Shown here: piece after piece, positions 806 through 38,146 of the stretch | How the letters are laid out: every line of letters starts with the position of its first letter | Position numbering within the stretch: position 1 is the first letter of the stretch | Position numbers and translations under genes: made by a program | Assembly (NCBI RefSeq): GCF_000218895.1 | Contig: NC_015703.1 | Location: 5,221,001 to 5,285,000, forward strand | Source: Runella slithyformis DSM 19594 | Lineage (GTDB): Bacteria > Bacteroidota > Bacteroidia > Cytophagales > Spirosomataceae | Direction of reading: 5' to 3' | Length of the DNA: 64,000 bases | The notes under the pieces: generated by a model | Told to the model about the DNA's origin: nothing | What the model saw: the letters and a program-made list of their open reading frames with translations, nothing else | Database searches by the model: none

Positions 806-2462
806 TGAATCAATTGTGCATAGCCCTCAGCAGCAAGATCACTCTTTTGCCGTACTATGGGCTCGTGCTTTACGGCGCATCTATTCAACCTCTTTTTTGT
901 ATTGCCTTTTAGTGACCGGTTTCGGCTTGTTCACTACTGAATTGAAGGCGCAGACCGTGAAACGGGTAGAGTTACCGACTCCGGGAGCCAATGAATCGTA
1001 CCATACGATCTCTTTGGGAGCCAAAGGGGTGGTATTGGTATCGCAGCTTTCCAAAAATACGTTTAACATTCAGAAACTCAATGTGGATCTGGACCGGGAC
1101 TGGTCGATCAACGGAACTATTGAAGATAACCTGGACTTTATTAAATCTTCGTACGATGGACAATCGATTTATCTTTTGTTTTCCCGCAGTCGTACGGACT
1201 TTTATCAGGTAGTAAAGGTCGGTATTGCCGGTTTTATGGAGACCTTTTACCTCACTTCAGTTGATCGTTTTCAAATCACGGATTTTCAGACGATCGGCTA
1301 TTCCGTTTTTATGGCGGGCACGGTACGGGATGAACCTATGTTGCTTTATACCAATCTGGCCTCCAAACAAAGTAAGATATTGCCCGGGGTAACCCAAGCC
1401 AACACCGTGATTCAGTCGGTAGATATTGATACTGTCCATCATTTAGTGAATGTTTGTTATGCCGCCCGCAAAGGACGTGAAATAAAGCTTATCTCGCGTA
1501 CCTATGATGAGTACGGGCAATCGGTAGGGCAGGTGATGGTATCGCCCGATCCTGATTATTCCCTACTCAACGGACGCCTCTTTATGCTCAATGATTCGAC
1601 CAAACTCATGATCGGGACATACGGTTTTCGCAATATGCAGGGAAACAACAACAGTGCGTCACAGGGATTGTTTTTGAGTAAGATCGTGTACGATGAAGTG
1701 GAATTTACCCAATACCACAGTTTTACGGATTTTAAGAACTTCTTCAATTTTATGAGCGAACGTGAACTTGAACGTATGCAGCGTAAGATTGAGCGTAAAA
1801 AAGAAAACGGCGATGATGTAAAACTCAATTATCGTTTACTGGTCCATGATATTATTGAGCAAAACGGTAATTATTTGATTTCCGGGGAGGTATTTTACCC
1901 TGAATACCGAAACAATACAAATGGAATGTATGGGATGAACTCATGGTGGGGCTCGCCGTTCATGTCGCCTTGGGGTATGGGAGGCATGGGAATGTTTCCT
2001 TCGTATGGCCTTTGGAATCCGTACTATTGGGATCCTTGGTTCGGAGCGCGCCGAATGAATAATGGACAGCAGTTCAACGGCTTCATTTACACACATGCCA
2101 TCGTGGCCGGATTTAATCCTAAGGGGGATTTACTTTGGGATAATTCGCTGCCGTTTGAGAATGTGCGAAGCATGGAATTAAAAGAAAAAGTAAGGGTGAA
2201 AACCAATGAAGATCAGACGGTTTCCATGTTTTACAGCAATAAAGGTGCGATCAAAGCAAAGGTGTTTGACAAAGACCGGGTGCTGAATGATCGTCACCCG
2301 ATTCCTATCATGACTGCTGATGCCGGTGATAAAGTTCGACAAACGAGCACCGATGAAGTGCTGTATTGGTTTGATAATTATTACTTAGCCTTTGGCTATC
2401 AGCGTATTACGGGTGACGACGGACGTCGCAATGTTTTTTACCTTAATAAAATATCTTTTTAA
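792..2462 (+). CDS. Secreted protein of unknown function
   Basis: A 556-residue protein that I do not recognise. After about 27 polar residues there is a positively charged stretch (RALRR), a hydrophobic core and an Ala-Gln cleavage-like site near residue 54, so it is probably exported to the periplasm or outer membrane. The body has repeated beta-rich segments such as YDGQSIYLLFSRS that could form a propeller, which is only an inference. Around residues 376-415 there is an unusual low-complexity stretch rich in Gly, Met, Trp, Tyr and Pro. The ATG overlaps the EVE gene; a GTG about 9 codons downstream would give a more ordinary signal peptide. Confidence 0.7.
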   Translation: MKTHNESIVHSPQQQDHSFAVLWARALRRIYSTSFLYCLLVTGFGLFTTELKAQTVKRVELPTPGANESYHTISLGAKGVVLVSQLSKNTFNIQKLNVDLDRDWSINGTIEDNLDFIKSSYDGQSIYLLFSRSRTDFYQVVKVGIAGFMETFYLTSVDRFQITDFQTIGYSVFMAGTVRDEPMLLYTNLASKQSKILPGVTQANTVIQSVDIDTVHHLVNVCYAARKGREIKLISRTYDEYGQSVGQVMVSPDPDYSLLNGRLFMLNDSTKLMIGTYGFRNMQGNNNSASQGLFLSKIVYDEVEFTQYHSFTDFKNFFNFMSERELERMQRKIERKKENGDDVKLNYRLLVHDIIEQNGNYLISGEVFYPEYRNNTNGMYGMNSWWGSPFMSPWGMGGMGMFPSYGLWNPYYWDPWFGARRMNNGQQFNGFIYTHAIVAGFNPKGDLLWDNSLPFENVRSMELKEKVRVKTNEDQTVSMFYSNKGAIKAKVFDKDRVLNDRHPIPIMTADAGDKVRQTSTDEVLYWFDNYYLAFGYQRITGDDGRRNVFYLNKISF

Positions 2463-35024: not shown

Positions 35025-36467
35025 TTACAATTCAAAAGTTTGTCCCTTTTGGGGAATCTCGATGTTTTTGTAACCGACGGATTCCAGCGTTTCCTTAAAC
35101 GCCAGCATACTTGGCGTTTCTCCATGTACAAGGAATACTGTTTTCAATTGGTCGGGCGATTGTTTTTGGACAAATTCGACCAAGTCATCGCGGTCTCCGT
35201 GGCCGCTAAATACGTCAATTTTTTCGATATTGGCCAATACTTGTTCGTCTTTCCCTCTTATGCGCAGCGTTGTTTGTCCATTCATAAGACGCCAGCCAAG
35301 GGTTCCTTCGGCACAATATCCAATTAATAAAATCGTACAGTACGGATTGCTAATGTTCTGAGCCACATGGTATTCGACGCGCCCTCCCTGTATCATTCCT
35401 GACGAAGAAATGATGATGCACGGCTCTGTATGATTGGAGATGGCACGGCTCGCTTCGGTTTTTTCGAGGTAGATTAAATTTTCGAAATCAAACAATGATT
35501 CGTTCTCTTCCTGAAACTCACGTGCCTCCCGATTAAGCATACGGATGTTGCGTTGGTACACGCGCGAGCTTTCATAAGCCAGCGGACTGTCGGCAAAAAC
35601 TTTGATCGGCGGCAGGTTATGATCATTATACAGTTTATTGAGCGTATAAAGTAAAGCCTGTGTTCGGCCTATGCTGAAAGAGGGAATAATAAGTCGTCCG
35701 GGAATATCTACGCAGGTACGCTGAATCACATCGGCCAAAGCGGCTTCCGGGTTGGCATTTTTTTCGTGCAAACGATTTCCGTACGTGGATTCACACACCA
35801 GATAATCTACCGGTGGAAGAACACCCGGGTCAATTAATAAAGGATAGCCTTTCCGCCCGATGTCTCCGGAAAATCCAATGGTCTTTTTCTGCCCGTTTTC
35901 CCAAACTTCTACCAAAATATGGGCCGCCCCCAGTAAATGCCCGGCGGGAATAAAAGTAACATAGCATTGGTCCGCTACTTTGAACCGACGGTTGAAAGAC
36001 AACGGAACAAAATTTTCAAGAGCATCGCGGACCTGTTTCTCAAGGTACAGGTCTTTGGGAAATTCCTTCTTTTTGCGTCCTTTTCGGAATTTCTTTTGAC
36101 TGTCAGCGCTGTTTATCTCGTTGATGCGTTTTTGGTTGAGCATGGCTGCATCTTTCAGTAGGATGCCCGTCAATCCAAAGGTAGGTTCTGTACATAATAT
36201 CTGCCCTTCGTAGCCGTCTCGGTACAGGTTCGGAATATTGCCCGAATGATCTATGTGAGCGTGTGTGAGTAATACTAAATTGATAATGGAAGCATCAAAT
36301 GGAAAAAGAGCATTGGGGAATGGGGTGGTTTCTTTAGTGTTACGTTTACGGTCACCGCTTTCAAAATCGGACCCACAATCAATCAGTATCCGGTAATCAT
36401 CATCTAATTCGAGGAGGTACATGCTGCCTGTAACTTGTTGAGCAGCCCCCCAAAACGTTAATTTCAT
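35025..36467 (-). CDS. MBL-fold beta-CASP ribonuclease family protein
   Basis: A ~480-residue metallo-beta-lactamase-fold enzyme with an inserted beta-CASP domain, as in CPSF73- and RNase J-like RNA nucleases. The metal motif HxHxDH is [11 protein letters not shown] (near residue 71), with GFSGDIGR and VCESTYGNR; the beta-CASP motifs [30 protein letters not shown] and the final [14 protein letters not shown] His motif are present. Specific RNA substrate and whether it is exo- or endonucleolytic are unknown. I chose ATG 36467 so that the MBL fold starts at once; the longer start adds 17 unconserved residues. It is 8 bp from accA. Confidence 0.9.
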
Positions 36468-36651
36468 ATATGTCAGATGCCCCGGTCCCTTGGGGAGTTT
36501 TGTTGCATTCTTCAACAAATCGGGACAAGCCTATCGTTGCAGGCATTGAAGAATGGTTTACGCAAATGTATCAAAAACTACTTAATTTCGGTATTCTGCC
36601 TAGCGGATGGTAAGCAGATTTTTATAAACCAAACAATGAAGTATGTCGTAT

Positions 36652-37140
36652 TTAGGTCCCCTGAGGCTCATCTAACGGAATTGATCGGGCAATGCGTTCT
36701 TCGAGAGAAATGAAGGTTTCGGTGCGTTGAATGCCGCCTACTTTTTGGATCTTATCGTGAAGAACCTGACGCAGGTGTTGGGTGTCTCGGCAAACTATCT
36801 TTGCAAAAATGCTGTAGATACCCGTCGTATAGTGGATGTTGACCACTTCGGGGATTTTTTCGAGTTGTACCGCTACTTCTTCATAAAGGGAGCTTTTGTC
36901 GAGGTAAATTCCTAAAAATGCGCTGATATCCCAACCTAATTTTGTTAGGTCTACCAGAAGCTGAGCTCCTTTAACGATTCCCAAATGCTCTAATTTTTTC
37001 ATTCGGACGTGTACGGTTCCGCCCGAAACATGAACACGTTTGCCTATTTCTGTATAGGGGAGATGAGCATCGTCCAATAAAATGGAAAGAATTTTAAGGT
37101 CAGTAGCATCAATTTTATCAATTTCTAAATTTTTGTCCAT
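36652..37140 (-). CDS. Lrp/AsnC family transcriptional regulator
   Basis: A 162-residue Lrp/AsnC regulator. The N-terminal winged HTH has ILDDAHLPYTEIGKRVHVSGGTVHVRMKKLEHLGIVKG (shown here as its core TEIGKRVHVSGGTVHVRMKK), and the C-terminal ligand-binding RAM domain spans about residues 75-155 (LGIYLDKSSLYEEVAVQL). Such proteins form octamers and respond to amino acids. The ATG at 37140 gives the conserved start; the 20 residues before it lie inside a palindrome. A perfect 25-bp inverted repeat begins 11 bp upstream of the start codon, a likely autoregulatory operator or hairpin leader. No aa-metabolism gene is adjacent. Confidence 0.9.
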   Translation of the reverse strand: MDKNLEIDKIDATDLKILSILLDDAHLPYTEIGKRVHVSGGTVHVRMKKLEHLGIVKGAQLLVDLTKLGWDISAFLGIYLDKSSLYEEVAVQLEKIPEVVNIHYTTGIYSIFAKIVCRDTQHLRQVLHDKIQKVGGIQRTETFISLEERIARSIPLDEPQGT

Positions 37141-37225: not shown

Positions 37226-37257
37226 TTTGTAATGAATGAGAAACTTTGTTAATTTTG
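37226..37257 (+). promoter_or_regulatory. Promoter directed into the tRNA-like RNA
   Basis: TTTG (37226-37229), 20 bp, then TAATTTTG (37250-37257), an exact Bacteroidota -33/-7 pair. Transcription should begin near 37263-37265. Confidence 0.65.
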
Positions 37258-37263
37258 CATTGT

Positions 37264-37691
37264 CAATTTACTGAAAGACACAGTTCATCAAGTAAATTCC
37301 AAAAGTAACGCTCTTTTATACTGTAGGATGATGAAACTTGGCAGCCATGCCCTCCTGTCTCGGGGGTGGTGACCACAGGATAAACACGATATAATGCCGG
37401 CACTCTAGTCGACTGGGGTAGACCACCAAACTTTGTATCGCGGCTAACTGCACCGTGGGCGGTTCGAATCCCCCTCCTACAGCAAGCAAACTCAGTCGGT
37501 AGAAACCGACTGAATCGAAATGAAGGATAGCTTGTTGGATAATTTATACTTCCACTTGTTATCCTTTTCAAATATAAGGTAAAGTGTCTTTTTGACACGT
37601 AATGCCTCAAAAGATACTATTTGGTTTTTAGTTTGTTGATGAAGTGTAATTGCGACACGCAGGCTCAACTTGAGGCCTGTGTGTTTTTTTT
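37264..37691 (+). ncRNA. Candidate structured RNA with tRNA-like ends
   Basis: No protein is encoded, but a promoter (37226-37257) and strong terminator (37655-37691) frame a ~430-nt transcript. It opens with a 7-bp hairpin (37266-37272/37291-37297). The core 37321-37482 has an 8-bp acceptor-like helix (CTGTAGGA/TCCTACAG), a class II-type D-arm with GG at 37340-37341, a 5-bp/7-nt anticodon-like arm (37350-37366), and a T-arm with loop TTCGAAT (37463-37469). Between anticodon-like and T-arm lie ~90 nt with an 8-bp helix (37387-37394/37433-37440). There is no CCA end or purine at loop position 37, so it is probably not a decoding tRNA. A hairpin follows at 37492-37513. Confidence 0.55.
37655..37691 (+). 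terminator. Terminator of the structured RNA
   Basis: Stem acacgcaggc/gcctgtgtgt (one G-U pair) with inner pairing TCAA/TTGA and a run of seven T. Confidence 0.88.
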
Positions 37692-37799: not shown

Positions 37800-38146
37800 T
37801 TGTTTTATACAGCTTCCCTCAAACATCCTTTTTGGCTAAAGTTTTACGGTATTGTGCTGCCATTATTACTATGCTATTTTATGCCGGGATTGTTTAACAC
37901 CTTTAGGATAATTTGGGGCAAGGAATCCAAACTGTATCCCGTTGTATCGCAGTATCTATTGCCGGCGTGTCTGGTGTTAATTTACGTTAGGAATGGAATT
38001 TAAGGCGGTTGCCGTGTAATTTAGTGGGAGTTGCCGATAACCCCGGTCTATTCACCGCGGGAATAATTTGGATGGCAGTGCATGTAGCAGCAATTTGCGG
38101 GTACATGATCGGTCTGATGCTGCATTGCGGGGGCTGTCTGAAGTAA
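37800..38146 (+). pseudogene. Relic of a DUF819 family membrane protein
   Basis: Two pieces of a DUF819 (YjcL-like, multi-pass membrane) gene remain. 37800-38003 encodes a hydrophobic N-terminal piece (LLLCYFMPGLFNTF, LYPVVSQYLLPACLVL). After a gap equal to about 50 missing residues, another frame at 38021-38146 reads LVGVADNPGLFTAGIIWMAVH and then runs into unrelated sequence with a stop. Both segments match consecutive family motifs, but intervening and downstream parts are lost. A family protein has about 380 residues, so this is a non-functional remnant. Confidence 0.6.

Follow-up and report, generated by a model that had tools for sequence, protein, structure and literature searches.

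The window analysed here is a stretch of 64,000 nucleotides from Runella slithyformis DSM 19594 (NC_015703.1, positions 5,221,001 to 5,285,000), and all coordinates below count from its first letter. On its plus strand lies an RNA gene (37264-37691) that had been proposed from the letters of the window (hereafter, the sequence-only reading). The promoter described in that reading is of the Bacteroidota type and consists of TTTG (37226-37229) and TAATTTTG (37250-37257) on the plus strand; it was read by eye, and the same columns are kept in relatives in a 30-locus alignment. The strong terminator of the gene was recovered by computation at 37654-37691 (plus strand), and in most of 42 loci inspected by eye a terminator directly follows the tRNA-like element on its 3' side. 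Upstream of the terminator, the segment 37484-37620 folds well (z -6.75). A conserved 31-nt block (37620-37650, plus strand), read as part of the same transcription unit, stands before the terminator. An exact 24-mer of it occurs in 29 of the 30 aligned family loci; beyond the window's family the block is present in L064 and G040, and no copy was found near the RNA in the remaining loci examined outside that family.

Divergent from the RNA gene, the minus strand encodes an AsnC-like regulator of 162 amino acids (36652-37140) with Lrp/AsnC Pfam domains. Two genes away from the RNA is a beta-CASP metallo-hydrolase of the RNA-processing type (35025-36518). On the other side, a 67-amino-acid piece (37800-38003) matches the start of DUF819 and is perhaps a gene remnant; a DUF819 match is also present among the right neighbours of the relatives.

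The sequence-only reading had described a class II-like, tRNA-derived RNA with a large insert in its variable arm, and this architecture is borne out by covariation. The core (37321-37483, plus strand throughout) has acceptor, D, anticodon and T arms. The 5' strand of the acceptor stem (37322-37328) begins U1 G2 U3 and pairs and covaries with 37475-37481, where 37481 is A72; the 3' strand (37475-37483) continues into G73 (37482) and C74 (37483). The D arm (37331-37348) has a 3-bp stem that covaries and a loop with GG, and the anticodon-like arm (37350-37366) holds the loop CUGUCUC (37355-37361). The variable arm opens with a stem whose 5' strand (37368-37371) pairs and covaries with 37451-37454. 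A 3-bp helix follows (37376-37378/37448-37450, the 5' strand being part of 37376-37384), and then an internal loop with RAUAAA on the 5' side (within 37376-37384) and CUAA on the 3' side (37444-37447). Above it is an inserted domain (37385-37442) with a helix (37385-37391/37436-37442), a hairpin (37398-37401/37408-37411) and the conserved GGGGTAGACCACCA (37415-37428). The T arm (37457-37474) has the loop TTCGAAT and covaries.

When a single core sequence was folded, the result was no better than that of shuffled sequences (z -0.87; 40 of 200 as good), and the proof of the structure is therefore comparative. A DNA search of 59 genomes yielded at least 30 loci with the whole core, the window's own included. 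A cloverleaf written by hand and scored on 22 of these loci formed 96.2% of its pair cells, compared with 44-63% when slid out of register. Changes on both sides were seen at 13 pairs, against 6.3 in shuffles, and none of 500 shuffles was as high. Covariation above that of shuffles was seen for the acceptor, D, variable and T stems, both over 190 parsed sequences and over 88 clusters, and the anticodon stem hardly varied (6 double-changed cells). The extra 3-bp stem, anchored on the motifs AxAAA and CUAA alone, was paired in 90.2% of cells in 174 sequences, against 67.6% when shuffled and 24-35% when slid by one. Thus, the compensatory changes on which the sequence-only reading had staked its RNA were found in the comparative alignments.

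Two details of that reading did not hold. The acceptor stem is 7 bp, not 8 bp: the supposed eighth pair, -1/73, is C-G in 101, U-G in 60 and A-G in 29 of the 190 sequences. In the 22-sequence alignment, 5 of 132 cells of the proposed crossing helix (37365-37370/37422-37427) fail to pair, and only 21 of the 127 long forms can make its full set of six pairs; the partner with which 37368-37371 pair and covary is 37451-37454, in the stem of the variable arm. Pairing of the loop's UCUC with the internal loop and mimicry of an anti-Shine-Dalgarno sequence by CCUCCU were also weighed by eye and dropped, as the flanking bases covary with other positions and the anticodon stem is not constant.

As the sequence-only reading had supposed, the RNA belongs to no Rfam family: there were no matches to Rfam release 15 at gathering level, and at E up to 10 there were four chance-level matches, none of them a tRNA. 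ARAGORN called neither a tRNA nor a tmRNA at the locus. An ordinary tRNA or tmRNA was set aside as an identity for the core, which is seen by neither Rfam RF00005 nor ARAGORN. We recognised no prior description of the RNA family in the open-access literature.

To judge from sequence comparison, the RNA gene is real and is a member of a large family (201 distinct sequences parsed). A covariance model, R1, trained on the window's family found relatives across the order and the class. R1 matches of about 85 nt at E near 1e-9 to 1e-12 resemble ordinary tRNA-Leu, and one that was examined is tRNA-Leu(GAG); the RNA was therefore counted at E up to 1e-15. In a pattern scan of named genomes, all 80 titles among the matches listed were Bacteroidota, including Chitinophaga, Niabella, Terrimonas, Pedobacter, Algoriphagus, Cyclobacterium, Belliella, Echinicola, Neolewinella and Phaeodactylibacter. 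Altogether 206 distinct sequences were collected, of which 190 were parsed for the structure counts. The 16 parser failures were five phage tRNA-Leu shells, two cut or broken sequences (L165 and L142:914-1053), a T-stem variant (L066) and eight with loops outside those that the parser allows. GGRUNGACCAC stands within a longer insert in 127 of the 190, and the total length is 142-212 nt; 44 of the 63 sequences without this motif are 110-129 nt long. Tandem arrays of three to five tRNA-likes were observed in L142:311-1053 (five), L272, L273 and L287, and up to nine R1 matches lie within one genome (G096). In L078, two additional partial copies (973-1043 and 1291-1361, minus strand), which comprise the inner domain and T arm and lack the 5' half, sit in a tandem repeat of about 318 bases.

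The RNA is also found in phage. Twelve viral contigs match its pattern; the ten distinct copies among them invariably have U1-A72 and G73. The stretch with the RNA includes three or more tRNAs, up to 14, in eight of the twelve contigs; tRNA-Ser(GCT) adjoins the RNA in six, and one contig (L218) also has an ordinary tRNA-Asp. This tRNA-array setting suits an RNA whose processing and demand resemble those of a tRNA. None of the 12 viral contigs contained the exact 27-nt 3' block, and a DNA search of phage and plasmid records gave no match to the RNA. The phage arrays contain further RNAs with a tRNA-Leu-like shell of the TAGTCAGGTGG...CCTGACTAC type (L216:7682-7831, L218:4906-5050, L218:5865-5974, L222:5064-5186 and L222:5269-5413), in which unrelated inserts of various lengths replace the anticodon and variable arms.

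The letters of the anticodon-like loop and the acceptor end point to particular enzymes. The window's loop, CUGUCUC, differs from that of the host tRNA-Asp, CUGUCAC, only at position 37, where U replaces A. Among 201 sequences (the 206 minus the five phage tRNA-Leu shells), of which 105 stem from loci retrieved with a pattern in which GTCTC is fixed, U35, C36 and C38 were constant (201/201), G34 was kept in 191 and replaced in 10, position 37 was U in 193, C in 6 and G in 2, and U33 was kept in 175. The other 96, counted separately, are covariance-model finds or belong to the training set of a model trained on the window's family; U35, C36, C38, G73, G2-C71 and U1-A72 were present in 96/96 of them and G34 in 87/96, and position 37 was never A. 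A37 occurred in one further pattern match (G791, class sample). Overall, U1-A72 was present in 199 of 200 full-length sequences, and the D loop read GG and then CA in all 190 parsed sequences. By eye numbering the RNA has A20a and no U at 20a, and the host tRNA-Asp and tRNA-Asn both seem, also by eye, to carry U20a. Pair 1-72 is G-C in the host tRNA-Asp and U-A in the host tRNA-Asn. A stand-in for a missing tRNA-Leu(UAA) was considered as a further possible role of the RNA: scoring 150 of 319 candidates in the host genome, G000, recovered neither tRNA-Leu(UAA) nor tRNA-Ile(GAU).

According to a published review, G73, G34, U35, C36 and C38 are strong determinants of Asp identity, and G1-C72 and G2-C71 are also important (PMC9976931). 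The same review attributes the amidation of Asp-tRNA-Asn by GatCAB to its U1-A72 pair and names G1-C72 and U20a as bars to it (PMC9976931). In the RNA, G2-C71 is present and the AspRS mark G1-C72 is absent, replaced by U-A. The RNA, in its predicted determinants, combines the marks for charging found in tRNA-Asp with the mark for amidation found in tRNA-Asn. The sequence-only reading had judged decoding unlikely, and the pyrimidine at position 37 in 199 of the 201 sequences, together with U33 in only 175, agrees with that judgement; the RNA probably does not read codons.

The neighbouring gene suggests a link to asparagine. The closest solved structure to the window's regulator is E. coli AsnC (2cg4, 5.6e-31; the next, 2.7e-20), a comparison made after the idea of asparagine had arisen, although membership of the Lrp/AsnC family was known before it. 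The NCBIfam AsnC model is the protein's best NCBIfam match, at 156.6 bits, below the cut-off of 227. A divergent left ORF of 140-185 amino acids, 80-260 bp away, was found in 78 of 120 loci, and the AsnC-like left neighbour was absent in 42, where the 120 include repeated contigs (e.g., L084/L154, L073/L134, L088/L113 and L089/L126) and are not independent. The 78 ORFs and the window's protein make up 79 Lrp/AsnC proteins, 52-79% identical to the window's one, and their profile matched E. coli AsnC 2cg4 at 8.3e-50 (next structure, 2.7e-30). In E. coli K-12, the divergent genes asnC and asnA are separated by 151 bp, and AsnC regulates asnA by asparagine. The most frequent Pfam family was a pseudouridine synthase among the other left neighbours (6 of 37) and a TrmB-type methyltransferase among the right neighbours (8 of 72).

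GatB was sought in three overlapping genome samples, of the phylum (148), the class (295) and the order (201). In the phylum sample, 14 of the 16 GatB-bearing genomes of the RNA's own class or nearer carry the RNA (not G047 and G309), and the RNA was found in none of the 20 genomes listed without GatB. In the class sample, GatB was present in 41 of 41 RNA-bearing genomes and 177 of 254 others (Fisher 1.7e-6, a value that, like those below, overstates the link because the genomes are related). In the order sample, where RNA presence was taken as R1 at E up to 1e-15, genomes with and without GatB numbered 137 and 5 among RNA carriers and 35 and 24 among others (Fisher 1.2e-10), 9 of the 29 GatB-negative genomes having been identified by elimination; good genomes only gave 128/1 and 31/7 (Fisher 1.3e-4). 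With the cut at 1e-14, the counts became 137/6 and 35/23 for all order genomes and 128/2 and 31/6 for good ones (p 0.0016), and G169 joined the set with the RNA and without GatB. That set otherwise comprised five order genomes, four of them identified by elimination: G128 (7% contamination), G176, G188 and G200 (68-89% complete) and G207 (91%). The two traits also go together within genera: in g69, G091 and G118 have both and G131 and G144 neither, and in g96 one genome has both and the other neither (G160, G215). Genus g80 runs the opposite way, since its members G200 and G207 carry the RNA and lack a GatB match. The association holds in one direction, as GatB without the RNA is common (177/254 and 35/59), also outside the class.

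In the class sample, AsnB-type proteins were found in 40 of 41 genomes with the RNA and in 230 of 254 of the rest, which indicates that the GatB link is not a mere effect of genome quality. The same 40 of 41 speak against the RNA as a plain replacement of AsnB across the class. To judge from E-values and the tally, the AsnB-type matches of the three sampled genomes of the window's family (G000, G012 and G016) appear to lie below the curated cut-off.

The sequence-only reading had suggested a tRNA-derived regulatory or recruiter RNA. The AspRS marks, U1-A72, the AsnC-like neighbour and the GatB link point instead to an aminoacyl acceptor that works with AspRS and GatCAB. From these signals, we consider it fairly probable that the RNA is a non-decoding tRNA which AspRS charges and GatCAB amidates: a carrier for making asparagine, with control of the AsnC type. 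AspRS would load the RNA with aspartate, and GatCAB would amidate the bound aspartate to asparagine. The charged RNA would have to be kept off the ribosome, where asparagine on a GUC anticodon would misread Asp codons; the absence of a purine at 37 and of an invariant U33 would fit selection against such decoding. Asparagine would then leave the RNA by hydrolysis or transfer, and the AsnC-like protein would adjust the amount of RNA to asparagine, in the way that AsnC controls asnA in E. coli. Possible roles of the variable arm are to bind a partner or to keep the ribosome away; against the carrier reading, an arm of such length may hinder a class II synthetase. The AsnB-type proteins in 40 of 41 carriers count against the carrier role, since most carriers may make asparagine otherwise. 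With somewhat less conviction, just short of an even balance, we propose that the RNA is a dedicated cofactor: a former decoding tRNA, combining Asp marks with the Asn pair, which stands in the place of asnA, provides asparagine as a metabolite and is carried in copy by phages.

The same AspRS and GatCAB marks, AsnC-like neighbour and GatB link would be expected of a sensor or decoy that binds AspRS and/or GatCAB, charged or not, and reports or limits Asp/Asn supply without metabolic flux, its level being set by the AsnC-like protein. A role in flux is less needed given the AsnB-type proteins of the carriers, but the tandem copies (nine matches in G096, five in L142) better fit a carrier needed in quantity, and we regard the sensor or decoy as unlikely. 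Considerably less probable is that the RNA donates its amino acid to another reaction, such as one that modifies lipids, wall peptides or natural products. The RNA appears to be non-decoding and probably charged, and there is no known enzyme partner for asparagine release, as such a donor would have it; however, no transferase recurs beside the RNA among 72 right and 37 other left neighbours.

A decoding tRNA of unusual form that reads Asp or Glu codons would account for the GUC-like loop, the intact elbow and a C74 like that of the host tRNAs. It is nonetheless very improbable given the pyrimidine 37 in 199/201, the U33 that is not fixed, the length of 110-212 nt and the replacement of G1-C72 by U1-A72; further, ordinary genes for tRNA-Asp and tRNA-Glu are present in the host. 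Mimicry of tRNA is known from bacterial Y RNAs and would be shared by a Y RNA-like partner of Ro60, but this reading was already disfavoured and is scarcely credible: TROVE (PF05731) had no match in the host G000 and was present in only 8 of the 59 genomes, most of which have the RNA itself.

Whatever its function, this is a widespread, covarying RNA family, found also in phage contigs, that gave no match in the searches of Rfam 15 and is not called by ARAGORN. If the carrier for asparagine synthesis is real, a tRNA can give up decoding and persist as a carrier in biosynthesis; this would help to explain why many Bacteroidota retain GatCAB, and how a charged RNA stays off the ribosome would become directly testable.

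Several known systems resemble the RNA in part. The bacterial Y RNA YrlA and tmRNA are likewise noncoding RNAs that mimic tRNA; in contrast to these, the RNA has no Rfam match, its host has no Ro60, and ARAGORN made no tmRNA call at the locus. In E. coli asnC-asnA, an AsnC-type regulator is likewise divergent from its neighbour across a similar gap, but the second gene here is an RNA and not asparagine synthetase A. With tRNA-Asp the RNA shares G34 (in most sequences), U35, C36, C38, G73 and G2-C71; it differs in U1-A72, the absence of purine 37, a class II body and the inserted domain. The nearest known system is tRNA-dependent asparagine synthesis on tRNA-Asn. One report describes this synthesis, by a non-discriminating AspRS and GatCAB, in Bdellovibrio, Deinococcus and Thermus, and states that the route can support asparagine prototrophy in an E. 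coli asnA asnB strain (PMC4206432). The two enzyme steps are the same as those proposed here, as is the selection of U1-A72 by GatCAB. However, the carrier in that route is the decoding tRNA-Asn (GUU), whereas the carrier here would be a separate, probably non-decoding RNA with an Asp-type loop, a long variable-arm domain and an AsnC-like neighbour.
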